A DNA stretch of 64,000 bases from Aurantiochytrium sp. KH105 (lineage: Eukaryota > Sar > Bigyra > Thraustochytrida > Thraustochytriidae). This document shows, piece after piece, positions 2,809 through 58,945 of this stretch. The DNA lies in the NCBI GenBank assembly GCA_003116975.1, contig BGKB01000119.1, positions 163,923-227,922 on the forward strand, in the 5' to 3' direction. Position 1 is the first letter of the stretch. The number at the start of each line of letters is the position of its first letter. The notes under the pieces are model-generated. The model made no database searches, was not told where the DNA came from, and worked only from the letters and a program-made list of their open reading frames with translations. A program made the translations under genes and the position numbers.

Positions 2809-3660
2809 GTCAAGAGTAAGAAAAACTTTCTCTTTTTACCTTTTGTTCTCCTTTGCCCACTGCTCACAGTCGGTCAGTTAGACAGTCACTTAAACGACAA
2901 GCGAAGCTGCACGGTCAACCCAACCTCACGGAAGCTAGGCATAGATAGCTGCTAAGTAGCTTGCTGCCTCCCGCAATCTTGGGCGCAGCCTCTTTTTTTA
3001 TTCGTTTCCCAAATCCGACCAAGACTGCTCCTGAGACGCTCACAATCGTTCGCAGCTGCAAGTCCGAGTCTAAGGAGCAGTCTCGGTCGGTCGCCACAAG
3101 CTGTCTTTTCAACAATCCTCTGAACCATTGGTCCCGGTCCTCCATCCAACGACAACAGCCTGGCTTGGGCGTAAAAAGCAAGCGCGTCGACTCGTTTCTG
3201 AGGCAAATCGAACGCTGTGCCTGGGAATTGCGTCTTCTTCCACTCCTACCCAGCGAAATTCGACACTGGTACACGCACGACCCGAGCTCGAATCCAATCT
3301 CGCAGCAAGCCTTCTCCGAGTCCGAGTCACGGTCGGCCTAGGACGTAACGGCCCTATTGGATTCTCCTCTCCATCACAGTTCACAAGAGAGCCTCCGTCG
3401 CTTCGCATAATCCAGTCTCGTCTTTTACTGTTCCGCCATGCCGGGCTCGCCTCGCCGGGCAATAAAATCGCGCAGCACGCCTTTTCCCTTCCACGCTCTT
3501 CTTATGCAGCTGCAGCTGCAGCATTCCTCGCTCTCTCGCTTTTTTTTACGACTGACTGTGAGTGGGTCCAGTCCATTTTAGGTAAGCACTCTGGTCTCGT
3601 CCTCTGAATTCGTTTGGACGGCGTGCAGCATGCCGCATGGTCTCCCCAACCAAGCAACTC

Positions 3661-3992: not shown

Positions 3993-5544
3993 ATGCCATT
4001 CCAGTGATTTCCACTTCTTGTTCTTCTTCTTCTTCTCCATCAAGTTCTTCTGCGAGCTCGAAGTTCAAGTTCAACTTCCTGCTGCCGCTGCCGCTTGACT
4101 TGGACACGAATGTTTTCCTCGCTTCGCGTCAAGCTGCTGCTGGCCGCGCTTCCCTTTTCCGCGATTCGATCCACGAGCTCCTAGCCAGCCGCCCGCCGTA
4201 CCGTACGTACTTGATCGCGGGGTCAATCGAGAACCTCGCGACCGTGACCTCGCCGCGCCTGCGCCGCACTAATAAATAAACTCATGCCCAAGCTAAGCTG
4301 AGGTATAATAGCTGAGCCGTGCCGAAAACCTCCTGGCCGCTGTGCGGCCAGAAAAACAGCGCCATGATGTGGCTTTCACGCGATCACCTGCGCTCCGCCG
4401 CGCTGTGTTGTGTTGCAATTTCTTGTGCAGCGTTAGCCCCGGCCGCGCCTACCAACTCCTGCGCGTGACTGTGAAGGCCGGTGGCGCGCCCGGTGAACGA
4501 TTGGCCGCGCGGTCGCTTCGCCCACCCGGAGCGGACCGGATCGAACCGCACCTCGCTGATAAAATCATTACGCGCGTGCGTCGAGGCGAGCAAGCAAGAA
4601 GCAGGCATGTAGTGCAAGCAAGGCGCGCGAGCTTTGCGCTCGCCGGAAGCGGGCACTGGCAGGCTGCTGCTTGCCGCTCGAGCGGGCGAGCGACCGGAGC
4701 GGAGGCTCGCGTCGCGACTACTACGTACAATAGAGTTGAACTTGAGATCCATTGTAGTATACTCTATACTACTACTATTATAATCAAATTTTCTGAAGTG
4801 GGAAACAGTTTTTTTATTACATTACACAGTAGAGGTTTTTCCGAGAAGCGGACTGCCTGTGAGCCGGAGGCGGAAGGGAAGGAAGGAAGAAAGAACGAAG
4901 AAGGAAGGGAAGGAAGAAAGTCCGGCCGGCCACGGCAGTGCTGCTGCAGCCCGCCACGCGCCGGCCAAGACTCGCAGCCGCAGCCGTCCGCGTCGCTCCC
5001 GGACCCCTCGCTTCGCCTCGCCTCGTCCCGCAGCTCCTCCGCCGCCCGCGTCCAGTCTCCCTTCCCCGCGGGGCCTGGCCCACGTCCTGGCCGGCTGGCC
5101 GGCTGGCTGGCGCGCTGGCCTGGCCTGGCTGGAGCGGGTCCACTGCCGCGGCTCGGCGGGCCGTCGCTCTTTTCCTCCCTCGGCAAGTTTCTCCGCCCGC
5201 AGAATCCATCGCGATCGATCGGGGGCCTGCGGGGCCCCTAACCGGCGCGAGCCCGCCGCTCTTCCGCAGAAACAAGCGTGAAAAGGGCGGCCATCGATGC
5301 AGGAAAGCAAAGGAACTTCAGGCTGGTCAGCAGAGATCGAATCGAGCGATCGATCATCGATCCATCAACCAAGCGGCCGACAGACTGACTGACGGACTGT
5401 CTGCGGCCGATTGCCGAGGGGACCAGAGCGCCATCGATTTGCTTCTCCTGGCTTTCGAGGCGCCTCGCCTCGCCTTCATTACGACCGACAGCGGGTCGCC
5501 ACATAGTACGCGCGAAAAGCAGACGCCGAAGAGGCGGAGCAGAG

Positions 5545-7695
5545 CAGCAACGTCGGGCGGCCGGTCGGTCGGTCGGTCCCGCGACAGGGCGCCGCGGCTG
5601 CGCCCCCGTGGCCGGGTCGAGCGGCAGGACGCTCGGGCCAGCGCTCGAAGACACGCTCAAACGCAGCGCACACAGTAGGAGATCACTGGCATCGGCAGCC
5701 ATGGACTCGTTCGCACAAAGAACGCCGACATCGGCGACGGCGCGGCGGATGCTCACGATGACGATCGCGCTGCTGGCGTCCACACTCGTGCTCATGGCGT
5801 GCTCCTCGGCACTGGAACTGGGGACAGGCACCATCCTGCTGTACAGATTCTCCATCTCGGAGACAGACTCGGACGACCCGCGGACGGTCGTTCTTCAAGG
5901 CAAGCTCGACGAGGTCCTCGAAGGCGCCGCCAACTCGCTCCCGTACGGGAAGCAGGCGGCCCAAGAGGGAAACGGCGCAGACACAGACCCGTACAACTCG
6001 GACGCCTCCTCGATTGAAAGCGCAGACCCCGAAACCCCAGAGGAGAAGAGCGACATCGCCTTGTTCCTCGCCAATAGCAAGGTCGAACATATGGATCCGC
6101 ATCTAAGAGGCAAGACGGCCGTCTTTACACACGTGCATAAGGCCGGCGGGTCGACGTTTTGCTATCTCGCCCGATTGAACATGGAGCAGGCCCCGGGCGG
6201 AAACTGCAACCCAGCGCCTATGCCTTCTCGCCTTGCCATTTCCCGCGGAACTCCCGAAGACTTTGACCGCGTGATCGCAGAAACTCGCAGACTCAATCGC
6301 ACCTTTGTCGCGACAGAATGGACTTTGCCCGAAGTCTTGCCGCAGCGAGACGATATCGTTCATGTCACTCTCTTGCGCAACCCCCTCGGACGCATGGAAT
6401 CGCACTACGCAATGGCGATGGACAAAGCCTACAAAAAGCTCAAGGATTCCAGCAGCAACATGTGTTTCTTTGCTCCTGGCCTCCTCTCCAGGTTCGAGCT
6501 TCGTCAGGCCACAAAAGACCTGACTCTCGCCGCCAAATCACGTCTGTACTATTCCAAAACTACACCCGACAATTGGCAGACCCGGGTGTTTTGTGGACCG
6601 CTGTGCGCGCGGATTCCGTACGGCCAGCTCACACGCGAACACCTCGAGCTGGCCAAGAACCGGCTACAGAGTACGTATGCTGCCGTGGGCATTCTTGATA
6701 ACTTTCGTCAGACGGTTCTGCTCATGCACGAAACCTTGCAGTGGGAAACAGACCCCGAGGAACTCTTCGCGCAACACAAAGGAACAAACCATGGAGGTCT
6801 CACAGTATTACAGCGTGTCGAGCAAGAGTCAGCAAAGCAGCCGGAGTTGCTCGAGTTCGCAAAGTGGTTCCACGCCACCAATTTGCTCGACATTGAGCTG
6901 TACAACTTTGCGCGGGGCATTTTCAAGCGTCAGCTTCAGTATTTTGGTATCCCGGCCGAGATCGGCCCGGACGTCAGCTTGGACTTTGTCTCGCCCAACC
7001 AAAAGGTGACGACCGCGGCCGAGCTCAAGGCTATGTTCGACGAGTACGCTGTGTCATGCTCCACCCAGTGCTGCACCAAGCAGTGTGGTCCCATTGGCAA
7101 CTATTGGTACAATGTTGCCCGCCAAATCGACATGGTTCCGGTCCGCAGAAAGTGGTGTTAGAACTCTTTTGAAGACGCCTTTGCTAGAGGGCTTTGCACA
7201 TTTTCTTTGTCGCTGCCTTTCCCCCCCGAGAAATACTCGCCCACATTTATTTACCTGTCAACTGAAATTTGTAGTGTTGGTTTTCCCGTTCGAGTTGGCC
7301 TATTTTGCTTGTTGTACGCGCCCTTTTCATTCTGTCCGTCTGAATCGCAAGGCTGGCAAAACACACTGCGCAATCATTTTATTGGAAGTCTTCAGGCGAG
7401 GGTGTTGACGTCTTTCGCTGCTTTCCTAATCAGCCTGCCTGCTTGCCTGCCTGCCTGCTTGACATCAACGACGGCTTTATCGCCTTCCGCCACGATCCTC
7501 ACGAACATGGACAATAAAATCACGATTTCCATCGAGGAGCCAAGCATCCTCACTTTCAATCAAAGACGAGAACAATCGCCCTTTACCTTTTCTGCACCGC
7601 CCGTCCAAGCGTCCCGCCAGCCGCAAGCAGCCAACACAGCCTTCGTTCGGCCCTTCGGAGAGGACTTCGCGTGTCCCGGCTCCCGGCCCGGCTGG
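5545..7695 (+). repeat. segmental duplication, unit A (carries sulfotransferase copy 3)
   Basis: This ~2.15 kb block is repeated at 8795-10940. Homology begins about 155 bp before the start codon, in a CGGTCGGT-rich segment, covers the whole gene, and extends about 530 bp past the stop codon to a CGGCTCCCGGCCC segment, where the two copies abruptly part. Identity is very high in the 3' half of the gene and in the 3' flank. Exact boundaries are accurate to roughly 20 bp by eye. Confidence 0.9.
5701..7161 (+). CDS. type II membrane P-loop carbohydrate sulfotransferase, array copy 3
   Basis: 486 residues from the Met at 5701. An upstream in-frame Met at 5608 would only lengthen the cytosolic tail. 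A TM helix spans ~18-38, and an acidic stem rich in Asp/Glu/Ser spans ~52-125. The PAPS loop is AVFTHVHKAGGST (~140-152), the ATEW block follows, and the 3'-phosphate motif LLRNPLGRMESHYAMAM sits near 230. Further blocks are DNWQTRVFCGPLCARIPYG, KGTNHGGLTVLQRVEQ, FAKWFHATNLLDIELYN and CSTQCCTKQCGPIG. The protein ends in Cys. It is nearly identical to copy 4 except in the stem and in two patches (residues ~249-271 and 353-358). Membership of the superfamily is firm; the acceptor is unknown. Confidence 0.87.
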   Translation: MDSFAQRTPTSATARRMLTMTIALLASTLVLMACSSALELGTGTILLYRFSISETDSDDPRTVVLQGKLDEVLEGAANSLPYGKQAAQEGNGADTDPYNSDASSIESADPETPEEKSDIALFLANSKVEHMDPHLRGKTAVFTHVHKAGGSTFCYLARLNMEQAPGGNCNPAPMPSRLAISRGTPEDFDRVIAETRRLNRTFVATEWTLPEVLPQRDDIVHVTLLRNPLGRMESHYAMAMDKAYKKLKDSSSNMCFFAPGLLSRFELRQATKDLTLAAKSRLYYSKTTPDNWQTRVFCGPLCARIPYGQLTREHLELAKNRLQSTYAAVGILDNFRQTVLLMHETLQWETDPEELFAQHKGTNHGGLTVLQRVEQESAKQPELLEFAKWFHATNLLDIELYNFARGIFKRQLQYFGIPAEIGPDVSLDFVSPNQKVTTAAELKAMFDEYAVSCSTQCCTKQCGPIGNYWYNVARQIDMVPVRRKWC

Positions 7696-7777
7696 CCGCG
7701 GATCCTCATCGAACCGGACAACCTTTGGTTTCCCTTCTGCGCATCTGTGAAGGATACGACATCTTGTTGCCGCGTGA

Positions 7778-7813
7778 CCCCCCCCTCCCCCCTCCCCCCT
7801 CCCCCCTTCCCCC
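7778..7813. repeat. C-rich homopyrimidine tract (potential G-quadruplex on the minus strand)
   Basis: Runs of 6-7 C separated by single or double T give at least five G-runs on the minus strand, matching the usual G-quadruplex pattern. It lies between sulfotransferase copies 3 and 4, about 80 bp past the duplicated block. Confidence 0.8.
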
Positions 7814-7855
7814 ATGGTTAAGCTCTCGCGAGTACGTAGTTCTCGAAGCGTCGCC

Positions 7856-8038
7856 CTACTCACCTTTCACCAGCACCACACGCGCAAACCTTCCTTGAAT
7901 GGAACCTTTTGGGGCTTCCTTAATGACTTTCGTCGATGCATGGACGAGCCTGAACTGTTCACCCGGTTTGTCGCTCACCAAAAGACGCTGAGCTACGGCA
8001 GTCTGAAGAGCATCGGCGTCGTACTCCCTTTTTGCCAT
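7856..8038 (-). CDS. putative small exon of an unrecognised gene
   Basis: A minus-strand ORF starting at 8038 encodes 60 residues of protein-like sequence (begins MAKREYDADALQTAVAQRLL; ends RFARVVLVKGE). Its last codons overlap a strong splice donor (AAAG before GTGAGT, exon end ~7864), so the in-frame stop at 7856 would be intronic. A candidate acceptor (CGCAG) precedes position 7736. Splicing there would continue in phase as EGKPKVVRFDEDPR and run into the edge of the duplicated block. It may be a small spliced gene or a fragment cut by the duplication. No family was recognised, and codon-level support is limited by its size. Confidence 0.35.
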   Translation of the reverse strand: MAKREYDADALQTAVAQRLLVSDKPGEQFRLVHASTKVIKEAPKGSIQGRFARVVLVKGE

Positions 8039-8794
8039 TGGTTTGGCGGTCGATGAAGAGAATTCTTCATTTACAAGATTTATTTACAAGGCTAATTCTG
8101 CACTGGCAAGCATCGCAACAACAAGGCACCCTCTTCACTCGGCCTCTGGCAGCGCAGCTAGCAGTCCAAACAGCAAGTCCAAGGGTATATGTCGAGCCGC
8201 ACTTGCGTCTTGCGCTGTGCCAATGCGCCGCTCAATGGGTTGAGACAGCAATGGCTGGCTGGCTGCCAGTAAGGCGAAGGATTGCGATTCGTTACATTTA
8301 TTGCAAGCCTGGTTGACTTGGGCATTGATCGCCTCTGTAAAGAAAATACTACTTGGTTTACAGGGTGGGTAGTTTTGCATTTTTTCACTTTGTCCAAAGT
8401 TTTGTCCCAATTTTTATGTCCAATACGGGTGCAAACCAGGGCGCGCCGCAGCGTAAGTTCGAGCAATAACGTACTTTAGTAATGGTTTAACGTCCGAACG
8501 TGGCGCCGCGACCGCAGCCAATGAAGAACTCCTACCGTACAACTACTGAGTACGCCCAAAGTAATGGTCTATAAGGGAGGTGACGAAACCTTCGTGATTC
8601 GGTCCGGCCAGATCACGAAAGTGTCACTGGTCAAGCAGTACTCTTACGGTGTAGTAACTGCAGACCTGGCCCCCAAATACTTAGAATGCAGATCTCAGAG
8701 GCTCACTGATCACCGATGACCAGTGAGACCGAACAGCGGCCCGGGCTTGGCCACCTTCAAGCGCAAAGCAGACTCTAAAAAGGTTGAGCAAGAG
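8039..8794. other. intergenic stretch, nothing recognised
   Basis: This stretch lies between the possible small minus-strand exon and the second duplicated block. It has ordinary composition, no domain-bearing ORF, and no tRNA-like fold noticed. It probably contains part of the promoter of sulfotransferase copy 4. Confidence 0.5.
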
Positions 8795-8933
8795 TAGGCA
8801 ACGTCGGTCGGTCGCGCGACGTGCGGCTGCCCTCTCGTGGCCGGGTCGAGCGAGTGGCAGGACGTTCGGGCCAGCGCTCGAAGACACGCTCAAATACAGC
8901 GCACACAGCAGGAGATCACTGGCATCGGCAGCC

Positions 8934-10415
8934 ATGGACTCGTTCGCACAAAGAACACCGACATCGGCGACGACGCGGCGGATGCCCTGGATGACGTCCG
9001 CGTTGCTGGCGTCCGCACTGGTGCTCATGGCGTGTTCCTTGGCTCTAGAACTAGGGACAGGTACCGTCCTGCTGTGTAGATTCTCCGTCCTGCTGTGCAG
9101 ATTCTCCATCTCGGAGACAGAATCCAACAACCCGCGGACGGTCGGTCTTCAAGGCAAGCTCGATGAGGTCCTCAAAGGCGTCGCCAACTCGCTCCCGTAC
9201 GAAAAACAGGCGGCCCAAGAGGGAAAAGGCGCAGACACAGACCCGTACAACTCGGACGCCCCCTCGATTGAAAGCGCAGACCCCGAAACCTCAGAGGAGA
9301 AGAGCGACATCGCCTTGTTCCTCGCCAATAGCAAGGTCGAACATATAGATCCGCATCTGAGAGGCAAGACGGCCGTCTTTACACACGTGCACAAGGCCGG
9401 CGGGTCGACGTTTTGCTATCTCGCCCGATTGAACATGGAGCAGACCCCGGGCGGAAACTGCAACCCAGCGCCTATGCTTTCTCGCTTTGCCATTTCTCGC
9501 GGGACTCCCGAAGACTTTGACCGCGTGATCGCAGAAACTCGCAGACTCAATCGCACCTTTGTCGCGACAGAATGGACTTTGCCCGAAGTCTTGCCGCAGC
9601 GAGACGATATCGTTCATGTCACTCTCTTGCGCAACCCCCTCGGACGCATGGAATCGCACTACGCAATGGCGATGGACAAAGCCTACAAAAAGCTCAAGGA
9701 GTCCAGGAAGAACTCGTGTCTCTTTGCTCCTGGCCTCCTCTCCAGGTTCGAGATTCGTCGGGCCAGAAAAGACCTGACTCTCGCCGCCAAATCACGTCTG
9801 TACTATTCCAAAACTACACCCGACAATTGGCAGACCCGGGTGTTTTGTGGACCGCTGTGCGCGCGGATTCCGTACGGCCAGCTCACACGCGAACACCTCG
9901 AGCTGGCCAAGAACCGGCTACAGAGTACGTATGCTGCCGTGGGCATTCTTGATAACTTTCGTCAGACGGTTCTGCTCATGCACGAAACCTTGCAGTGGGA
10001 GACAGACCCCAAGAAACTCTTCTCGAAACACAAAGGAACAAACCATGGAGGTCTCACAGTATTACAGCGCGTCGAGCAAGAGTCAGCAAAGCAGCCGGAG
10101 TTGCTCGAGTTCGCAAAGTGGTTCCACGCCACCAATTTGCTCGACATTGAGCTGTACAACTTTGCGCGGGGCATTTTCAAGCGTCAGCTCCAGTATTTTG
10201 GTATCCCGGCCGAGATCGGCCCGGACGTCAGCTTGGACTTTGTCTCGCCCAACCAAAAGGTGACGACCGCGGCCGAGCTCAAGGCTATGGTCGACGAGTA
10301 CGCTGTGTCATGCTCCACCCAGTGCTGCACCAAGCAGTGTGGTCCCATTGGCAACTATTGGTACAATGTTGCTAGCCAAATCGACATGGTTCCGGTCCGC
10401 AGAAAGTGGTGTTAG
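8934..10415 (+). CDS. type II membrane P-loop carbohydrate sulfotransferase, array copy 4
   Basis: 493 residues from the Met at 8934, which corresponds to the start chosen for copy 3. The architecture is the same: TM helix at ~18-38, acidic stem, PAPS loop AVFTHVHKAGGST, 3'-phosphate motif LLRNPLGRMESHYAMAM, and the DNWQTR, HATNLLDIELYN and CSTQCCTKQCGPIG blocks. The extra 7 residues come from a 21-bp tandem duplication that doubles VLLCRFS just after the TM region. Compared with copy 3 the core is almost unchanged, except that residues corresponding to 249-271 and 353-358 carry twelve substitutions, mostly to Arg or Lys. Upstream in-frame Met codons exist (8784) but the 8934 start is better supported by the paralogue. 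The acceptor is unknown; the added basic charge suggests a more anionic one. Confidence 0.87.
   Translation: MDSFAQRTPTSATTRRMPWMTSALLASALVLMACSLALELGTGTVLLCRFSVLLCRFSISETESNNPRTVGLQGKLDEVLKGVANSLPYEKQAAQEGKGADTDPYNSDAPSIESADPETSEEKSDIALFLANSKVEHIDPHLRGKTAVFTHVHKAGGSTFCYLARLNMEQTPGGNCNPAPMLSRFAISRGTPEDFDRVIAETRRLNRTFVATEWTLPEVLPQRDDIVHVTLLRNPLGRMESHYAMAMDKAYKKLKESRKNSCLFAPGLLSRFEIRRARKDLTLAAKSRLYYSKTTPDNWQTRVFCGPLCARIPYGQLTREHLELAKNRLQSTYAAVGILDNFRQTVLLMHETLQWETDPKKLFSKHKGTNHGGLTVLQRVEQESAKQPELLEFAKWFHATNLLDIELYNFARGIFKRQLQYFGIPAEIGPDVSLDFVSPNQKVTTAAELKAMVDEYAVSCSTQCCTKQCGPIGNYWYNVASQIDMVPVRRKWC
9066..9107 (+). repeat. in-frame 21-bp tandem duplication inside sulfotransferase copy 4
   Basis: GTCCTGCTGTGTAGATTCTC plus C at 9066-9086 is followed by a copy differing at one base (9087-9107). 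Copy 3 has a single unit at the matching place, so the duplication happened after, or was lost in, one paralogue. It encodes VLLCRFS twice. Confidence 0.93.
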
Positions 10416-11214
10416 AACTCTTTTGAAGACGCCTTTGCCAGAGGGCTTTGCACATTTACTTTGTCGCTGCCTTTTTCCCCCGAGAAATACTCGCCCACAT
10501 TTATTTACCTGTCAACTGAATTTGTAGTGTTGGTTTTCCCGTTCGAGTTGGCCTATTTTGCTTGTTGTACGCGCCCTTTTCATTCTGTCCGTCTGAATCG
10601 CAAGGCTGGCAAAACACACTGCGCAATCATTTTGTTGGAAGTCTTCAGGCGAGGGTGTTGACGTCTTTCGCTGCTTTCCTCACCAGCCTGCCTGCCTGCC
10701 TGCTTGACATCAACGACGGCTTTATCGCCTTCCGCCACGATCCTCACGAGCATGGACAACAAAATCACGATTTCCATCGAGGAGCCAAGCATCCTCACTC
10801 TCAATCAAAGACGAGAACAATCGCCCTTTACCTTTTCTGCACCGCCCGTCCAAGCGTCCCGCCAGCCGCAAGCAGCCAACACAGCCTTCGTTCGGCCCTT
10901 CGGAGAGGCCCTCGCGAGTCCCGGCTCCCGGCCCTTCTGGCCGGCCCTGCTCTCTGCTCTGAGAGCGGCTCTTCTACGCCCGGCTAGTAGTGGATCCAGC
11001 GAGGACTCGGACTGGACTGGACTGCGCTCCCAGACCTCGCCGCAGATCATGCAGACGCGAGCTGCCGCGGCCGCAGCGAGCCCGCCTGCCCGCTCCGGCT
11101 GAGGCGGCGCGCGCGAGGGCGCTGGCGCTCGGCCCGGCGCCGCTCCGGCCGCAGCCTGCGCGAGAGGGCTGCGTCGCGGACGGGGCGCTGATTTCGGGAC
11201 CAAGTGCGCGGCCG

Positions 11215-12582
11215 ATGCGCGTGCGGAGCCCGGTCTCGGCGCGCTCAGAGAGCGACGCGTGTCGGCAGACGCAGCGAAGGCCGCTGCCGGCGCCCGCGAG
11301 GACATGGCGCCTCGCGTCTTGCGCCGCCACCGTCGCTCTCAGCGTTCTCGTGGCCGTGGCGCTTTTCACGCGATTCGTCGGGCTCGAGCACCTTGTGAGC
11401 GGCCAGAGCGCTCTTGACGCGCACGACGAAGACAACGACTTCGCGAACAACGCTGAAACGCTACTCGTTGCAAATCGTGAGCGCGACCCTGCCGAACGAG
11501 GGGTCTTCAAGCGAAAGTTCGTCGCCGTCTTTCTGCACATTCACAAGAGCGGCGGGACAACAATGTGTTATCTAGCATGCAAGCGAGAACGTGCCGTGCG
11601 TGACACAAACTGCAATATGTATGGCGGCGAGGAGCGCATTAAATTCTCCAACGGGTCTCCCGATGAGTTTGCAGGTCTAATTGACAAATATCACAAAGAC
11701 AAGCGGCGCAGGCTCACCTTTCTCGCCAGCGAGTGGTATTTGCCGGCACAGCTTCCGGCGCGAAACGACATCAAATACATGACGATGCTGCGCGATCCGC
11801 TTGCACGTATGGAGTCGCACTTTCACATGGCCTTTGAACAGGTGCTCAAACTCGTCAAGAACTCGCCTGGTACCTTTGCTTCGCGGCGACGCCGCTACAG
11901 CGATGGAATGCCCTCGTGGCAAGATCTCCGTCGTGTGAGCAAATCTACGAACTCTGCGAGTTCCATTCGTTTATACTTTGCGCTTAATGTACCCGACAAC
12001 TGGCAAACCCGGGCAGTGTGTGGACCAGCCTGCGCCAAGATCCCATTCGGGAGGCTCACAGATGAACACTATGAGATCGCGCGGCATCGTCTCGAGCATG
12101 ACTTCGCTGTCGTTGGCATCCTCGAACACTTTGAGACAAGTATCACGCTCATTCACGACTTGCTTCAGTGGAGAGGCAATAGCAGCGACGAGTTTCGAGA
12201 ACATCACGGCACGAATCACGGCGGCCTCAGCGCTCTTGCGCGTCTCGAGGAAAATACGGCTGGTGATCCTCAGCTTCTGGACTTTGCCAAGTGGTGGCAC
12301 GCCGTCAATCTCTACGACATCCGACTCTACAATGTCGGTCGTGATATTCTCCAGCGGCAAGCCGCAGCAGCTGGATTGAAGGTGGACATGGGTCCTGATG
12401 CCGCCCATGAATTTGTGTCGCCTGATGGATCCGTAATGTCTGAAGACGACCTCCGCGCTATGCTTGATGCCAATGTCGCTACCCGAAACTGTACAACACA
12501 ATGCTGTCTCGAGAAATGCGCGCCGATTGGCACCTTTTGGATGAAAACAGCTGTTGAACTCGGAATGGCGCCATCGTCTTGA
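11215..12582 (+). CDS. type II membrane P-loop carbohydrate sulfotransferase, array copy 5 (most divergent)
   Basis: 455 residues from the Met at 11215. The ORF is open upstream to a Met at 10990, but that stretch is Arg/Pro/Ala-rich and would bury the signal anchor. A TM helix spans ~33-53, the stem is short, and the PAPS loop is VAVFLHIHKSGGTT (~103-116). The ASEW block and the 3'-phosphate motif MLRDPLARMESHF follow. DNWQTRAVCGPACAKIPFG, FAKWWHAVNLYDIRLYN and CTTQCCLEKCAPIG are conserved. It differs from copies 1-4 by SHF for SHY, a shorter stem, and Arg/Lys clusters after the 3'-phosphate motif. It is the last gene of the array and is followed by its own 21-bp repeat. Identification is firm at superfamily level only. 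Confidence 0.85.
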   Translation: MRVRSPVSARSESDACRQTQRRPLPAPARTWRLASCAATVALSVLVAVALFTRFVGLEHLVSGQSALDAHDEDNDFANNAETLLVANRERDPAERGVFKRKFVAVFLHIHKSGGTTMCYLACKRERAVRDTNCNMYGGEERIKFSNGSPDEFAGLIDKYHKDKRRRLTFLASEWYLPAQLPARNDIKYMTMLRDPLARMESHFHMAFEQVLKLVKNSPGTFASRRRRYSDGMPSWQDLRRVSKSTNSASSIRLYFALNVPDNWQTRAVCGPACAKIPFGRLTDEHYEIARHRLEHDFAVVGILEHFETSITLIHDLLQWRGNSSDEFREHHGTNHGGLSALARLEENTAGDPQLLDFAKWWHAVNLYDIRLYNVGRDILQRQAAAAGLKVDMGPDAAHEFVSPDGSVMSEDDLRAMLDANVATRNCTTQCCLEKCAPIGTFWMKTAVELGMAPSS

Positions 12583-12908: not shown

Positions 12909-13398
12909 CTTTTTTAACATCCTTGTTGATGAATCGCGGCGTGACCCTTTGCAGTGCGCCCGCAAAACCAACGGTCGCCTCACATCTGCTTCTTCTATTT
13001 CCTGTTTCTCCATTTCTCGCACGCCGCGGCAGCAAGTTTGCACCACCCATGGTAGTAACGATCGTGCCGTGCATGCTTGGGATCCTTCATGCGACGAGGA
13101 GCTTGATAATAAGTGCAAATCCAGTTTGCGCACGCGGCGCGCGTCGCAACGGCAGAGCGGAGAAAAGAGGAGGTGGAGGGTCGGCCGGCAAGACTAGCTA
13201 GCCTGGGAAGGGGGGACATATTTTTCTTTCCTCTTTAACTTTTTTTTGTTTGTTTTGGGACGATTTTGCGGAAAAAGACCTCGCCAAGGGTGAGCGAGAC
13301 TTACTCATCGTGTTGGGCGTTCACTGCACGTGAGATGAGCGCGGGACGCCATCTCTGCTGCAGATGCGGCACCGTGACGCGACAATGCAAGCTGGCAG

Positions 13399-13459
<61 letters not shown>
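13399..13459 (+). repeat. (AAGC)15 microsatellite
   Basis: Perfect tetranucleotide array, the longest AAGC tract in the window. Confidence 0.95.
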
Positions 13460-15266: not shown

Positions 15267-15614
15267 GGAGCGTATAGCACCACTACATCATGTAAAGAAA
15301 AATAGTGTGAGCCAGCCTAGTACCCGCTTGTCTTCGAGCCATCTTCGCGAGCCTTTCACTGGCCTCGCGTGATCCATGTGAAGAGATCAATGGCGTCCGT
15401 CGCGTCTGTTGGCTCGACCGACCCGCATATCTACTCCTACCGCCATTGTTGGTCGGTGGACCGGACGCGGACCCCGTCGTCGTGCAAGTCAAATTGCGGG
15501 CGTTGTTCACATGTCAATTGCAAAGATCGCGTACTACAAGATTAGTCTATACTATACCATGTATGTATAGCATACTCGAACCCGTGCCGCGGCGTGCAGC
15601 GATCTTTTCTTTCG

Positions 15615-15637
15615 GACAAGCAAGCAAGCAAGCAAGG
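15615..15637 (+). repeat. (AAGC)n microsatellite
   Basis: About five AAGC units, then AAGG units, ~150 bp upstream of the second Cys-rich gene start. Confidence 0.88.
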
Positions 15638-15781
15638 AAGGAAGTCAAACAAGCAGCAGATCTACAAACCGCGAAGCTAGTGACTGGCGGAGCGGCGGAC
15701 ACCGAGTGGTACACCGAGAAGAGCGCGCAAACGGAGGAGGCGAGCCCGAGCGAAGGCATAAGAAAAGGATCGACGAGCGAA

Positions 15782-16938
15782 ATGCTGGGCGCAAAGGTGT
15801 GCTTACTGCTGGCGCTGGCCTTGGTCGCGCTCACGATCTGCGTGGAGGCGGCGAGCCTGCGCCAAAATGTCCTCGAGACCCTGAACGAGCTCAACTCGCT
15901 GAGCTCGAGCGCCAGAGGGCGTCGTCGTCGTCGTCGCAGCAAGCCCAGTTCTGTGCCCCCTGTTTGCGAGGAAATCTACAACATGGAAATGGCAACAACC
16001 TTTTCGGATTGTATCAATAGCGCGGAGGTGAAAGGTCAAACTGGCGTCGACTGCTCGGCCGCAGACATGCAGAACTATGATGCATGTGCTTCTAACCTCG
16101 CTTGCGTGTGGTGGCATCTCAACGAGGACGTCCCGGATCAGTGTATGCCGTACGTTGAATTCGACTCTTGATGTCTGTACACTTTTTCTGAAGGTGATGT
16201 GTCATCTAACAAATTCTCTTTGCCCATGCGGAAAAAACAAACCTCTGCTTTGCGACTCGTACCTTATCAGAAACCCTTGTTACCGGTAGGTCTCACGTTT
16301 GCGCTCTTTCAAAAAATGGGACGTAGAAGAAGTGGCTAACCGCCTTCGCTTTGACAAATTCAATGAATGTAGCATCAACAACGGTCTCTGTACAATCCAG
16401 AACACTGGCGGACGCTGCGTCTGGTACACGCAAGAACAAAACGAACAAATCAATGGCGTCAAGTCTCCGGGCTGTTACAAGTCTCCGTGCAGCAACCCGC
16501 TTGACAACACGCCGAGTGGTTGCGAAGGAAAGAGCAATGCCTTTTACGAGTACGTTTTCTGATCCCTCTTTCATTCAATCATTCAATCATTCACCAATCA
16601 AAAACTCTCAGGAACGTAGAACACTCACCCTTTTTCTCATTAGATGCGTTTGGTGCCCCAAGTACAAGGGTCAGGCATACGGCTGCATGAACGCAAAGAC
16701 CGAGTCGAGCGCGCAGTGCTGGAATATTAATGGCGTTGGGTCCACACCGGGATGCAACAGCTGCATGCAAGAGGAGTTTGGAACTTGCGAATCGGAGAAA
16801 TGTAAGAAGAATTGCTGCCAGTCTCCCCTTTGCACTTGTGATCTCAGTGATACGTCCAAGCCCGGATCGCCTGGTACCGCGATCGATATCATCATTCCAG
16901 ATGATAGTACGACTCAAGATGTGAGTACTACCGAGTGA
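15782..16938 (+). CDS. secreted cysteine-rich protein, tandem copy 2 (three exons)
   Basis: Spliced as 15782-16149, 16373-16549 and 16644-16938, giving 279 residues. Both donors are GTACGT, the acceptors are TGTAG and ATTAG, and both introns are phase 2 at the same places as in copy 1. Exon 2 is 177 nt in both genes. A signal peptide (MLGAKVCLLLALALVALTIC) is followed by ~35 residues and a run of six Arg. Cys blocks match copy 1: CEEIYNME, CVWWHL, CTIQNTGGRCVWY, CYKSPCSNPLDNTPSGC, CVWCPKYKGQAYGCMNAK and CKKNCCQSPLCTCDL. The C-terminus is longer and rich in Ser/Thr/Asp. The stop TGA overlaps a GTGAGT word, so a further 3' exon cannot be excluded. Function unknown; probably extracellular. Confidence 0.8.
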
Positions 16939-33338: not shown

Positions 33339-35549
33339 ATGGGGCCGCATGATGGACGCGCGTCTCAAGACCCAGAGGACTACAAGAAGACGCCCGCTGA
33401 GCGCTTCACGTTCAACGAGGATCTTGAGGACATTTACAAGACGTGGAAACAGCTCGTCCCAGACGAGAAACGCGGCCATGCCGAAGTTTTCGTCAAAGAG
33501 CTCATTGCCTTGAACCCACAGACCAACGAAGAGCTCAACAAGGCCACCTCCAAGGTGCGACGGATGCACAAGTTTCCTTGCAGCTTTCGCAAGTCAGAGC
33601 TCTTACACGTACTGATGGCCCTCGAGGAGGAGGGCAAGCTGAGCGGGCCCGAGGTTGTCAGCATGCGCAAGTTGCTCGTCAAAAAGTCTGGCAAGAGCAA
33701 CTCTGGCGTGCTCGTCATCACTGTGCTCACGAGCCCATACCCGCACGGACAAAAGTTTTCCTGCGAGTGGAACTGCTATTATTGCCCAAACGAGCCAGAC
33801 CAGCCCCGCTCATACCTGCACGACGAGCCATCCGTCTTACGCGCCAACCGCAACCGCTTCGACCCAGTTCTTCAATTTTTTGATCGAGCTGTGACCCTTG
33901 CCATGAACGGTCACCCGGTGGACAAGATCGAGCTCCTCATTCTGGGGGGCACCTGGGCGTCGTACCCAGTAAGTTACCAGGAAGAATTCATTCGCGACCT
34001 CTTTTTTGCGGCAAACACCTTTTACACGCAAGGCACGGGACGGGACCGCAAGTCTCTGAGCGAGGAAAAGGCCCTCAACGAGCGCGCGCGCTGCAAAATC
34101 ATCGGCATCACGCTCGAAACGCGTCCAGACTGCATCAACGCGCAAGAGCTCCAACGCTTTCGCCGGTACGGCTGCACCCGCGTGCAGCTCGGCGTGCAGC
34201 ACACGGACAACGCCATCTTGAAACGCATCAATCGCGGCTGCACGAGCGAGGACGTGCGCAATGCCCTGCGTTTGCTCAAAGATGCATGCTACAAGGTCGA
34301 CATTCATTTGATGCCGAATCTGCCTGGATCGACGCCGGACGTGGATCGTAAAATGTTTGACGAGGTTCTGACAGACCCTGATTTTCAGGCCGATCAGTGG
34401 AAGATCTACCCTTGCGAGACTACCCCATGGACCGTCATTCAACGCTGGTATGAGACTGGCAAATACAAGCCTTATCCGGAGGACGAACTAATGGACGTTC
34501 TCCTCGAAACCAAGGCCAAAGTTCATCCTTGGATTCGGCTCAACCGCGTGATTCGTGACATTCCATCGCAATACATTCTTGGCGGGGTGGACAATCCAAG
34601 TTTGCGTCAGGTCCTGCAAAAGCGCCTTCTCGCCAACGGCCAACGCTGTCGCTGCATCCGTTGTCGAGAGGTGCGGAATCAGACACCGTCTCCTAATGAT
34701 GTGAGTCTCGTTGTGCGCTCGTACGAGGGGCAGGGCGCCCAAGAGTTCTTTTTGTCGTATGAGGTCAACGATGAGGCAGAGACTATTCTTGGCTTCCTTC
34801 GTCTCCGGCTTCCCGGTCGGCGCGTACTTTTGCGTGAAGGTGGCGTTGAGAGCGCTCTTCCTCCAGCTCTGAGCAGCGCCTCGGTCATGGGCTACAGCAG
34901 TGACGATGACGATGACGAGGAGGATGGCGAGGATGGCGGCAGCGGTGACAACGACAATGAAAGCGAAGCTGAAGATCGTGGCCGAAGCACAGTCAATGCG
35001 GCAACATCAGCGTCATCTTCAGGAGGGAGTTTGCGGCGTCGTAAGAGAAGCAAGACGCCAACGGTTCGGCGAAAGACTCCTGCTAAGAAATCGGCGGCTA
35101 AAGCGCCGTCGACGACTTCGTCGTCAGCCAAGCCACCGCGCGTAGATCCGTCGCAAATGTTTGTTCCATTTTCCGAGCTTGATGGCGCTGCTCTCGTTCG
35201 CGAGCTTCATGTATATGGGCAGCTCATCCCGACCGAGCAATCGAAACGCACGCACGCTCAGCACACTGGTATCGGGACGCGACTGATGGCCGAGGCCGAA
35301 AAAATTGCGCAACGGCACTGGTATCGGCGCGTGGCCGTCATTTCGGGTGTTGGCGTGCGCGACTACTATCGCAAACTGGGCTACGAGTTGCAAGGCGAAG
35401 GTGAATTCATGATGAAGGAGCTCAGCCCGGTCTCGGAGCACGTGGACAAGTTCATTCTGGCTCTCATCGCGATGATTGTTGGGTTCAACGTGTTTCTGAG
35501 CGTTCTCGTTTTGCAATCGTTGCAGTCTTCTCCTTCGCCGTCGCAGTGA
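33339..35549 (+). CDS. ELP3: Elp3-type tRNA-modifying radical SAM acetyltransferase with C-terminal TM anchor
   Basis: 736 residues. Elp3 forms the carboxymethyl precursor on wobble uridine of tRNA. The radical SAM domain carries CEWNCYYCP (Cys ligands for the 4Fe-4S cluster) with LLILGGTWASYP, GITLETRPD, GCTRVQLGVQ, DIHLMPNLPG and LNRVIRDIPS following in the family order. The GNAT part has VRELHVYGQLIP, HTGIGTRLMAEAEKIA and VAVISGVGVRDYYRKLGYEL, so it looks catalytically complete. Two departures from human Elp3 stand out. First, a ~105-residue disordered acidic-then-basic insertion (~520-625) splits the acetyltransferase region. Second, a hydrophobic segment at ~705-727 (FILALIAMIVGFNVFLSVLV) ends the protein. 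Such an anchor is known for the tail-anchored mitochondrial Elp3 of Toxoplasma. The radical SAM part is also closer to algal/apicomplexan-type Elp3 sequences than to the human one, as far as I can judge. Confidence 0.92.
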   Translation: MGPHDGRASQDPEDYKKTPAERFTFNEDLEDIYKTWKQLVPDEKRGHAEVFVKELIALNPQTNEELNKATSKVRRMHKFPCSFRKSELLHVLMALEEEGKLSGPEVVSMRKLLVKKSGKSNSGVLVITVLTSPYPHGQKFSCEWNCYYCPNEPDQPRSYLHDEPSVLRANRNRFDPVLQFFDRAVTLAMNGHPVDKIELLILGGTWASYPVSYQEEFIRDLFFAANTFYTQGTGRDRKSLSEEKALNERARCKIIGITLETRPDCINAQELQRFRRYGCTRVQLGVQHTDNAILKRINRGCTSEDVRNALRLLKDACYKVDIHLMPNLPGSTPDVDRKMFDEVLTDPDFQADQWKIYPCETTPWTVIQRWYETGKYKPYPEDELMDVLLETKAKVHPWIRLNRVIRDIPSQYILGGVDNPSLRQVLQKRLLANGQRCRCIRCREVRNQTPSPNDVSLVVRSYEGQGAQEFFLSYEVNDEAETILGFLRLRLPGRRVLLREGGVESALPPALSSASVMGYSSDDDDDEEDGEDGGSGDNDNESEAEDRGRSTVNAATSASSSGGSLRRRKRSKTPTVRRKTPAKKSAAKAPSTTSSSAKPPRVDPSQMFVPFSELDGAALVRELHVYGQLIPTEQSKRTHAQHTGIGTRLMAEAEKIAQRHWYRRVAVISGVGVRDYYRKLGYELQGEGEFMMKELSPVSEHVDKFILALIAMIVGFNVFLSVLVLQSLQSSPSPSQ

Positions 35550-37114: not shown

Positions 37115-38069
37115 CTTAGCTTAGTTGATGAATCTACGCGTCTGCTTCGCCGCACCGGGAAAGAAGACGCCGCCGCTTCGACGACAAGCTGCTCTCGACG
37201 CTCGCGTGCGTGCGTGCCTGCCGCTGCTGCTGCTGCTGCTGCTGCTGCTGCGTGCCTGCTGCCTGCGCGAAGAGCGGTCTGTCTGCGCGCCGCCGCGGCC
37301 TCGCGCTGCGCCGCCGCCGCCACCCGCGCCGCACTTGCAGCCGCGGATAGCCCACTTGCGCGCGCCGCCGCAAGTCGCCTATCCGCGCCGCACACAGGGC
37401 CGCAAACCGCGCCCTGCGCCTGCAGCCAGGATGTGCGGCAGCAAAGCGCCGCGCCGGCGGATCTTCCTCGCCCTCACGGGTTGCCCCGTCTCTGCGCGCC
37501 GTCTCCACGCCGCTCCCCCTTACGCCCTACAGTGTGTCTTCGCGCCTTTACCCCCCCAGCACCACTGGGCGCTGTTTACCTGATCCATTCTCGGATAAAT
37601 CTACTAATTTGGTTCTCCCGAGTGGAGTCGCGGCGGTGGGTCGCTGGCATTTCCAGCACGTAGGGTTAGGCTGAAGCGCAGATTCGCCCAGTGACGGGGT
37701 TTCGTGCGATCAGTGCACCGTTCGCAGTAGCGGGGGCACCATGTGCGGGAGATTCCCCGGTGCCACGAAGGGGAGGCAGGGCACTAGAATCTTCCCCGCG
37801 CGGGATTTAGGTGCTTTCCAATCCAAAAGGGGTTGCGCACGAAGGGCGGGATTCTCGTCGTTGTCTTTGGACCTCGGACGACTCGGGCAGGCAGGCTCTG
37901 GCGGCAAACGTCGAACGCGAGCGAGACCTGGACGTCGTGCGCGGGGGCCGAGAGGAGAAGCGCGGGGCGGGCGGGCGGCAGCTGGCAGCGCCCGGGCCTC
38001 GTCTACGCGGCACGGCACGGCAAGGCAAGTCGATCTTCGTTTCGAGGAGGCTTGAAGAGGAAGAGCAGG
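37115..38069. other. divergent promoter region with (CTG)n tract
   Basis: This lies between the starts of ATP synthase gamma (minus) and FGE (plus). It contains a CTG/GCTG trinucleotide run at 37223-37251 and GC-rich sequence with many spurious ORFs. No gene supported. Confidence 0.6.
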
Positions 38070-39380
38070 ATGGGACGCTTGACGCCGACTCGACGAGCTC
38101 GGGCCCTTGCCCTCGTGCTTGTGGTGGTGCTCGCGCTCGCGCTTGCGCTTGCGGCAGTCGACGCTGCTGAGGCGACCGAGACTGAAGCAAGAGACGACGT
38201 CGAAGGCGGATGCGCGGCACGATTCGACGATGAGGAGGGAAATGCAGTCGCCGAAGGCAGCGCAGAAGCCGACGCGGAAGCCTCATGCGGATGCGCGGAT
38301 GCGCAGAACCGAGCGTCTGCCCTTGGAGACATGCTCGAACAAGACAAGCAGAAAAAAGAGCAGCAAGAGTCTTCCGTGAAAACCACCTCAGCTGAGAAAC
38401 ACGAGCTTGACTCCGCGCCTGTGTTTGACGAACTGCAAGCGTACATCGAGGCCGGCCACATGAATCCTGACCTTGTGCGCCCCATGCCCATGGTCTTCAT
38501 CCCAGCGGGTGAGTTCACCATGGGCACAGATGATCCGCAAATCCCCGGAGACGCCGAAGGGCCCGCTCGTCGTGTCCGACTCAGCGAGTTCGAGCTCGAC
38601 GAGATGGAGGTCTCCAATCGACAGTTTGCCGAGTTCGTGCTCGATACAAAGTACATTACAGAAGCCGAAAGCTTTGGTTGGTCCTTTTGCTTTCTTGGGA
38701 CACTCTCCGAAAAGCTTCGCGAGGAAATCACGGTTCAAGTTCAGGAGGTGCCGTGGTGGGCGCCGGTGAATGGCGCGAATTGGCTGCATCCCGACGGCCC
38801 TGACAGCGACGTCGTCTTGCAGGACAAGCTCGACTATCCCGTGACGCACGTCACACATAACGACGCTCGCGCGTACTGCGAGTGGGCAGGAAAGCGTTTG
38901 CCTCGCGAAGCAGAGTTCGAGCGCGCTGCCAAGGGCGATCTTGAGGGGGTGCTTTTTCCTTGGGGCGCCGAGATGACGCCAAATGGAACACACCGCGCAA
39001 ATCTCTGGCAGGGTCACTTCCCTGACAACAATACTGGAGAGGACGGCTACGTTTGGGCGAGTCCAGTTGATAGCTTTGGCGCCCAGAACAAGTTTGGGCT
39101 GAAAAATATCATTGGTAACGTGTGGGAGTGGGTTGCTGACGCATGGAACACGCGCCATCATCTCACAGCGCCAGGCGGCGGCATGTTGACCGACTTCCAG
39201 GTAGAGATTGCCGGCCGCATTGACGATCCTGCTGTCGAGCGCGTCAAAAAGGGCGGCTCGTACATGTGCCACATTTCGTACTGCTATCGCTATCGCGTCG
39301 ATGCGCGCTCGCACAATACGGCTGACAGCAGCTCTCAAAATCTGGGATTTCGCTGTGCGCGTGATGCCGACGAAGATTAA
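38070..39380 (+). CDS. SUMF1: formylglycine-generating enzyme (SUMF1-type)
   Basis: 436 residues from the Met at 38070; the frame stays open upstream, but this start gives a proper signal peptide (basic MGRLTPTRRAR, then an Ala/Leu/Val core). The enzyme oxidises a cysteine in the CxPxR motif of sulfatases to formylglycine in the ER lumen. The FGE-sulfatase domain spans ~150-432: MVFIPAGEFTMGTDDPQIPG, ELDEMEVSNRQFAEFV, WAPVNGANWLHPDGPDS, YPVTHVTHNDARAYCEWAGK, RLPREAEFERAAKG and IIGNVWEWVADAW. Both active-site Cys are present in GGSYMCHISYCYRYRVDARS (five residues apart), so it should be active; the following Cys of human FGE is Val. A disordered acidic linker (~30-145) is rich in Glu and Ala. 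Its presence implies sulfatases in this organism. Confidence 0.95.
   Translation: MGRLTPTRRARALALVLVVVLALALALAAVDAAEATETEARDDVEGGCAARFDDEEGNAVAEGSAEADAEASCGCADAQNRASALGDMLEQDKQKKEQQESSVKTTSAEKHELDSAPVFDELQAYIEAGHMNPDLVRPMPMVFIPAGEFTMGTDDPQIPGDAEGPARRVRLSEFELDEMEVSNRQFAEFVLDTKYITEAESFGWSFCFLGTLSEKLREEITVQVQEVPWWAPVNGANWLHPDGPDSDVVLQDKLDYPVTHVTHNDARAYCEWAGKRLPREAEFERAAKGDLEGVLFPWGAEMTPNGTHRANLWQGHFPDNNTGEDGYVWASPVDSFGAQNKFGLKNIIGNVWEWVADAWNTRHHLTAPGGGMLTDFQVEIAGRIDDPAVERVKKGGSYMCHISYCYRYRVDARSHNTADSSSQNLGFRCARDADED

Positions 39381-58904: not shown

Positions 58905-58905
<1 letters not shown>

Positions 58906-58945
<40 letters not shown>
58906..58945. repeat. (GCTT)n microsatellite
   Basis: About ten GCTT units in the convergent 3' region between the multipass protein and the MscS channel. 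Confidence 0.95.

Follow-up and report, generated by a model that had tools for sequence, protein, structure and literature searches.

The first part of the analysed window (64,000 nucleotides of contig BGKB01000119.1 of Aurantiochytrium sp. KH105, here called C119) carries five copies of a head-to-tail cluster of sulfotransferase-like genes, of which there are six on the contig. The first of the five is truncated at the window boundary, and the remaining one is located farther upstream. This report concerns copies 3 and 4, both on the forward strand. The coding sequence of copy 3 is at 5701–7161, counted from the Met of MDSFAQ, a start codon placed by its conservation in four copies, within a mechanical open reading frame (ORF) of 5608–7161. 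Copy 4 is at 8934–10415 from the equivalent Met (mechanical ORF 8784–10415), and through the compared core the offset from copy 3 to copy 4 is constant at 3254.

The genome searched comprises 76 Mb in 367 contigs, and counts of large families in it are lower bounds. A protein search found 16 family loci, which form eight near-identical pairs: the six cluster copies on C119 match six on contig C7, and two further pairs lie on C78/C255 and C133/C69. On C7 the cluster is present a second time in the same order, and copies 3 and 4 have counterparts there. Collinearity with C7 extends over the first 16 kb of the window, at about 87–96% identity across the main matching blocks, and silent divergence in the eight cross-contig sulfotransferase pairs is about 5.5–9.8% (domain, patches excluded). 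C119 and C7 seem to represent two haplotypes or two subgenomes; for brevity we speak of haplotypes. In both of them copy 4 has a 7-residue tandem insertion (VLLCRFS twice) in its N-terminal membrane/stem region, which copy 3 is without.

Copies 3 and 4 have stretches of more than 200 identical bases in common. Their differences in the C119 core include two short patches, which we call patch 1 (6445–6513 in copy 3, 9699–9767 in copy 4) and patch 2 (6757–6774 and 10011–10028, respectively), all on the forward strand. The initial annotation reported twelve replacements and no silent change in these patches, and this is what the C119 pair contains: reading from copy 3 to copy 4, eight codons change in patch 1 (D-E, S-R, S-K, M-S, F-L, L-I, Q-R and T-R) and four in patch 2 (E-K, E-K, A-S and Q-K). 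It was equally right that the intervening stretch, 6514–6756, holds a single difference, which is silent and lies at 6747, and that the patches of copy 4 carry about nine more positive charges, the net charge going from -2 to +7. By the method of Nei and Gojobori (NG86) there are 14 replacement and no silent differences in the patches, on 65.0 and 22.0 sites, compared with 4 and 6 in the rest of the core (625.2 and 223.8 sites); the 5' coding part has 22 replacement and 14 silent differences. The replacements of the C119 pair are clustered beyond chance, since a 23-codon window equally dense in replacement codons occurred in a fraction of only 0.00025 of 20,000 shuffles. The same fraction is 0.049 for the C7 pair, and 0.46 and 0.71 for the same-copy pairs across contigs.

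Comparison with C7 shows that not all of these differences separate the two copies as such. Seven of the twelve replacements are common to both haplotypes, namely S-R, S-K, M-S, L-I, T-R, E-K and Q-K. The other five are not shared: F-L and Q-R (6466 and 6506) are private states of C119 copy 3, and E-K at 6757 and A-S (6769) are private to C119 copy 4, with no difference between the copies on C7 at any of the four; at the D-E codon (6447) C119 copy 3 again has a private state, and the C7 copies differ too, as V-E. The absence of silent changes likewise holds for C119 and not for C7, where the patches have 3 silent differences besides 10 replacements. Both haplotypes have the more basic patches in copy 4; on C7 the patch charge goes from 0 in copy 3 to +5, a difference of 5.

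Conversion around the patches

Copies 3 and 4 from C119 and C7 were aligned four ways, and each site at which two sequences differ from the other two was scored as grouping either by haplotype (the two copies of one contig alike) or by paralogue (the same copy alike on both contigs). The catalytic core, at 6225–7161 in copy 3 and 9479–10415 in copy 4 on the forward strand, has 13 haplotype sites outside the patches, four of them amino-acid-changing, and no paralogue sites. The patches have no haplotype sites and nine paralogue sites, seven in patch 1 (6453, 6455, 6456, 6460, 6461, 6499 and 6512) and two in patch 2 (6760 and 6772), and all nine change the protein. Paralogue-fixed sites are found at 9 of the 87 patch bases and at none of the other 850 core bases. 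Taken in order, the 22 two-by-two sites of the core form five runs (six haplotype, seven paralogue, five haplotype, two paralogue, two haplotype; P 0.002). No crossed two-by-two sites were seen, and the list of sites in 6225–7161 was unchanged under three other alignment settings. The islands are narrow, their fixed sites spanning about 60 and 13 bases. The nearest haplotype sites are 20 bases to the left of patch 1 (6433 to 6453) and 28 to its right (6512 to 6540), and 145 bases to the left of patch 2 (6615 to 6760) and 35 to its right (6772 to 6807).

Beyond the core, the two sides differ. The 3' flank scored at 7162–7700 has 30 haplotype sites and one paralogue site; in copy 3 the tract homogenised within the haplotype, which lies outside the coding frame, is at 7162–7698 (forward strand). 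On the other side of copy 3, the 630 aligned columns of the 5' flank and coding part (5594–6224, forward strand) have a mixed history, with 18 paralogue sites and 14 haplotype sites. Three of the former and two of the latter are in 5594–5700, while the coding part, 5701–6224, has 15 paralogue sites (4 of them silent) and 12 haplotype sites. Further upstream, 5501–5593 has 18 paralogue and no haplotype sites, but this stretch is the edge of the duplication, rich in gaps, and another aligner setting lowers the count to 13.

Tree tests, in which paralogue and haplotype groupings were compared by maximum likelihood under the Hasegawa-Kishino-Yano (HKY) model, reject a single history for patches and core. 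The pooled patches back the paralogue grouping, with a difference in log likelihood of 25.9 and a P of 0.001 for the haplotype tree in the approximately unbiased (AU) test. The pooled core backs the haplotype grouping (difference 48.4; AU P 8e-9 for the paralogue tree), as does the 3' flank (difference 80.4).

Mutations younger than the haplotype split are thus present in both copies, in the core and in the 3' flank, and this implies non-allelic conversion or an equivalent exchange. Conversion homogenises the core outside the patches, as the initial annotation had considered, and paralogue-specific differences in the core are confined to the patches. Its description of the copies as recent duplicates needs to be revised in part. 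The duplication is older than the haplotype split, because paralogue-fixed sites are found upstream (15 in 5701–6224 and 3 in 5594–5700) as well as in the patches (9), and the near-identity of the core is due to later conversion. The patches are therefore old paralogue differences that have outlasted conversion. The same 15 (4 silent), 3 and 9 sites, which predate the split, rule out independent duplication in each haplotype, and protein constraint is ruled out as the source of the core identity by the non-coding 3' flank, which is homogenised too.

Some sites could be polarised using copies 1 and 2 as outgroups, but with a protein identity of only about one half the polarity is tentative. Among haplotype sites, the derived state is on C119 at 6556 and at 6116 (just upstream of the core), and on C7 at 6261 and 6612. 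Among the shared patch changes, that at 6499 (L-I) is derived in copy 4 and that at 6772 (Q/K) in copy 3; for the other seven shared sites the outgroups give no polarity. The apparent drift of copy 4 towards basic residues is polarised in part only.

The enzyme and the position of the patches

Copies 3 and 4 probably encode a Golgi-type carbohydrate sulfotransferase dependent on 3'-phosphoadenosine 5'-phosphosulfate (PAPS), a placement made by motifs, from which the activity is inferred. The 5'-phosphosulfate loop, FTHVHKAGGST, is at 6124–6156 in copy 3 and 9378–9410 in copy 4, and the 3'-phosphate motif, LRNPLGRMES, at 6373–6402 and 9627–9656, all on the forward strand. Both are identified by invariant columns and by alignment to heparan sulfate 6-O-sulfotransferase isoform 3 (HS6ST3): H15, H17, K18, G20 and G21 of the loop and R97, P99, R102 and S105 of the R..P..R..S motif are invariant in all 16 family members. 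An N-terminal hydrophobic stretch, read by eye, suggests a type II Golgi membrane protein.

The five copies in the window have weak or no Pfam matches, copies 3 and 4 having none to PF06990 (Galactose-3-O-sulfotransferase); none of the five reaches the gathering cut-off of that family (best 23.9 of 27 bits). At E values of up to 1, PF06990 is matched by 10 of the 16 family members (best 1.3e-5) and Sulfotransfer_2 by 4 of 16. A genome-wide search with PF06990 returned two other loci, on C39 and C217, and no cluster copy. Among solved structures, a single-sequence search gave no match, and a search with the family profile gave HS6ST3 (PDB 5t03, E 7.4e-6), whose PAPS-binding motifs align with those of the family, and two matches at chance level. 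No relatives were confirmed in viral contigs or prokaryotic genomes.

Overall similarity of the family to the heparan sulfate 6-O- and 2-O-sulfotransferases is marginal. The HS6ST His that we take to be the catalytic base faces an invariant Ala in the family, and an invariant Glu (E77) lies two residues beyond it (copy 4 domain residues 75–77). To judge from this alignment, the family may use another catalytic base.

The alignment to HS2ST (PDB 4ndz) covers 74 columns, with a pairwise E of about 2e-4 and a probability of 43–45%. It starts at the FCG motif, takes in the patch 2 segment and runs to beyond HKGTNH. In this profile comparison patch 2 is 7 to 12 residues ahead of the residue facing HS2ST R288. 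Patch 1 starts 15 residues past the Ser of the 3'-phosphate motif and lies between that Ser and the FCG motif. HS2ST has R184 and R189 in this same interval; when the alignment is forced to extend, which carries no confidence, the HS2ST RRRK comes to lie just ahead of the start of patch 1. According to passages of the HS2ST study (PMC6081452), the acceptor is bound through its carboxylate, which pairs with R189, and through an N-sulfate, which R288, R80 and K350 hold. Given these contacts and the positions of the patches, it is plausible that both patches are near the acceptor cleft and take part in acceptor contact.

Why the patches were retained

On the basis of these observations, we hypothesise that divergent selection on acceptor recognition has acted under gene conversion in an uncharacterised sulfotransferase family, and we regard this as the probable explanation, with appreciable room for doubt. 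Copies 3 and 4 are tandem paralogues that were duplicated before the haplotypes or subgenomes split. Afterwards, non-allelic gene conversion or an equivalent exchange overwrote the catalytic core and the 3' flank, in both haplotypes as far as the polarity can be read, and two short islands kept the paralogue difference in both. Most likely, selection removed alleles in which conversion had erased the patch difference. The patch residues would set the acceptor choice of each enzyme, with a presumed role for the more basic charge of copy 4, and might match the acceptor-contact segments of HS2ST, one after the 3'-phosphate motif and the other just before the conserved HKGTNH segment. The evidence that paralogue differences were retained in two islands is strong, and that for selection as the reason is moderate.

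The case for selection is made by the kind of change that is retained. The ratio of replacement to silent changes is 9:0 at the paralogue-fixed sites and 4:9 where core sites group by haplotype (Fisher P 0.0017), and fixed replacements in the patches (9 on 65 sites) exceed in density the silent changes fixed in the 5' coding part (4 on 142.6; P 0.004). Positive selection was proposed at the outset. The C119 patches give 14:0 (one-sided P 0.017, in a window chosen post hoc) and those of C7 give 10:3 (ratio 1.20, P 0.53); a ratio of replacement to silent divergence (dN/dS) above one is not established.

Several further points weigh against our explanation. The 9:0 of the shared sites, compared on its own with neutrality, gives P 0.073, and does not differ significantly from the 11:4 at paralogue-fixed sites in the 5' coding part (P 0.26). 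The patch divergence of 9/65 is not above that of 5501–5700 (21/179, P 0.66), although 18 of those 21 sites are in 5501–5593, the poorly aligned edge, and depend on the aligner. Replacements in patch 1 are not significantly in excess among the alleles of copies 0, 1, 2 and 5 (proportion of replacement sites that differ, 0.028 versus 0.017, P 0.28), which leaves diversifying selection on this patch in all copies unsupported. A domain segment near residue 45 is equally variable as patch 1, yet has no island. The tree tests give no significant result for patch 2 alone (18 bases) and a weak one for the right part of the core (6775–7161; Shimodaira-Hasegawa P 0.14, AU P 0.02), and with the 5' coding part neither tree is rejected. 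In the comparison with HS2ST, the hhalign probability is low, as noted above, and patch 1 is not confidently covered. Finally, the sample consists of two haplotypes of one genome, taken from the assembly alone, with no reads.

The most serious alternative, which we consider unlikely but by no means negligible, is neutral retention: the patches, being laden with mismatches, would have escaped conversion through heteroduplex rejection or patchwise repair, to no benefit of the cell. The marginal P for the shared sites, the similar ratio in the 5' coding part and the comparable divergence of 5501–5700 would all be expected from this. Against it, at the density of 5501–5700 some 2.6 silent fixed sites would be expected in the patches and none is seen (P 0.076), and the patches are denser in fixed differences than the reliably matched 5' part (18/630). 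Neutral escape also sits poorly with the lack of any paralogue-fixed site in the remaining 850 core bases, and with the location of both islands in segments that vary across the family. Among seven family representatives, only one of 335 windows of 23 residues is less conserved than patch 1, and 21 of 352 six-residue windows are less conserved than patch 2.

This variability could also be read as relaxed constraint, with the patches as surface loops that tolerate nearly any residue and accumulate replacements without selection. That they are among the least conserved segments of the domain, and that C119 copy 3 has private replacements in them (F, Q and D), is in keeping with such a reading. 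We consider it improbable: it leaves unexplained why fixed differences outlast conversion only in the patches, and alleles of the same copy differ there by fewer replacements across haplotypes (3.5 for copy 3 and 2 for copy 4) than the two copies do from each other (14 and 10).

One copy might also have received its patches by conversion from a third paralogue of different specialisation. Such an import is conceivable in a family that is variable at the patches and has six tandem copies in each haplotype, and single patch residues do recur: copy 1, for example, has K at positions 225 and 229, and copy 0 has K and I. In the alignment, however, neither patch is found whole in any of the 12 other family members, leaving a lost or unassembled donor as the possible source. 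A 22-base piece of patch 1 of copy 4, searched with up to 3 mismatches, matched only the two copy-4 genes (2 forward matches, and 1 with a reversed-pattern control); patch 2 and the copy 3 patch were not searched in this way. The possibility raised in the initial annotation, that a third copy might reveal the patches as ancestral variation spread by conversion, thus finds no source in this search or in the alignment, and import is disfavoured as very improbable. An assembly artefact, in which collapsed or mis-phased copies yield a false mosaic, is the least probable of all: the identical stretches of more than 200 bases and the lack of reads behind the check would allow it, but the same patch states occur on two contigs, each linked to the matching 5' paralogue sites, and the haplotype-specific sites speak against mixing across contigs.

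If divergent selection on acceptor recognition is the cause, the patches might constitute a natural map of the determinants of acceptor specificity, and the seven shared replacements might be, or include, the residues needed for two sulfation patterns. We put this forward tentatively, as a possibility with somewhat less behind it than selection itself. It is hard to predict which residues give polysaccharide sulfotransferases their specificity, the large substrate-recognition regions not being conserved, as excerpts of PMC11625862 state. Ongoing conversion acts here as a natural chimera experiment, which narrows the candidates in the core to the seven residues common to both haplotypes, and a patch-swap test would therefore be small and decisive.

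Known divergence islands and the neighbouring sequence

A pattern of this type is known from opsins and has been treated theoretically by Innan and co-workers (PMC3924837). There as here, conversion homogenises tandem duplicates and divergence peaks sharply at a few amino acids, which in the known case are decisive for function; copies 3 and 4 stand apart in having two peaks, within the catalytic domain of an enzyme, at residues whose role is putative. Two features of such pairs are present. Over most of their length the paralogues are more alike within a lineage than orthologues are across lineages (haplotype versus paralogue sites are 13 to 0 in the core and 30 to 1 in the 3' flank; the 5' coding part, with 12 to 15, departs from this), and the local peaks of divergence are common to the lineages (9 sites in 87 patch bases, 0 in 850).

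A further parallel is the pair GOT1p1/GOT1p2 of the copepod Tigriopus californicus, in which islands of paralogue divergence persist amid ongoing conversion in several lineages; passages of that study (PMC3728101) take sites common to paralogues within but not across populations as the mark of conversion. According to the same passages, Ka/Ks, the ratio of replacement to silent divergence, is relatively low between those paralogues, unlike the islands of copies 3 and 4, where the fixed sites are replacements only. Copies 3 and 4 are thus a further example of a known pattern, in an uncharacterised sulfotransferase family and with an unusually clear map, and they provide a clear two-haplotype case of divergence held against conversion.

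The same mosaic was sought in another tandem sulfotransferase pair, on C104/C113, and rejected: within each contig the two genes are about 73% identical over about 540 bases, with 82% identity over a further 94 or so, and no recent homogenisation was seen.

The remaining cluster copies within the window are also on the forward strand. Copy 1 is represented by its 3' part (29–856), the gene starting upstream of the window, and copy 2 is at 1123–2808. Copy 5, at 10990–12582, has the best Pfam match of the five window copies, to Gal-3-O-sulfotransferase, and is under the cut-off. A sulfatase-modifying factor gene (FGE-sulfatase, PF03781, E 4.5e-67) is at 37833–39380 on the forward strand, about 25 kb from the cluster, a linkage that is likely to be due to chance. 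The Elp3-like radical SAM/acetyltransferase gene at 33339–35549 has a second copy on C7 that is 98% identical.

It is worth adding that the window contains a second local duplication, in which 14728–14876 matches 16371–16519 (79% over 149 bases) and 15006–15089 matches 16642–16725 (81%). Between its copies is an ORF (15446–16171) for a small protein with no Pfam match. Finally, a short simple-repeat tract is common to 13395–13459 and 58905–58945, in inverted orientation.

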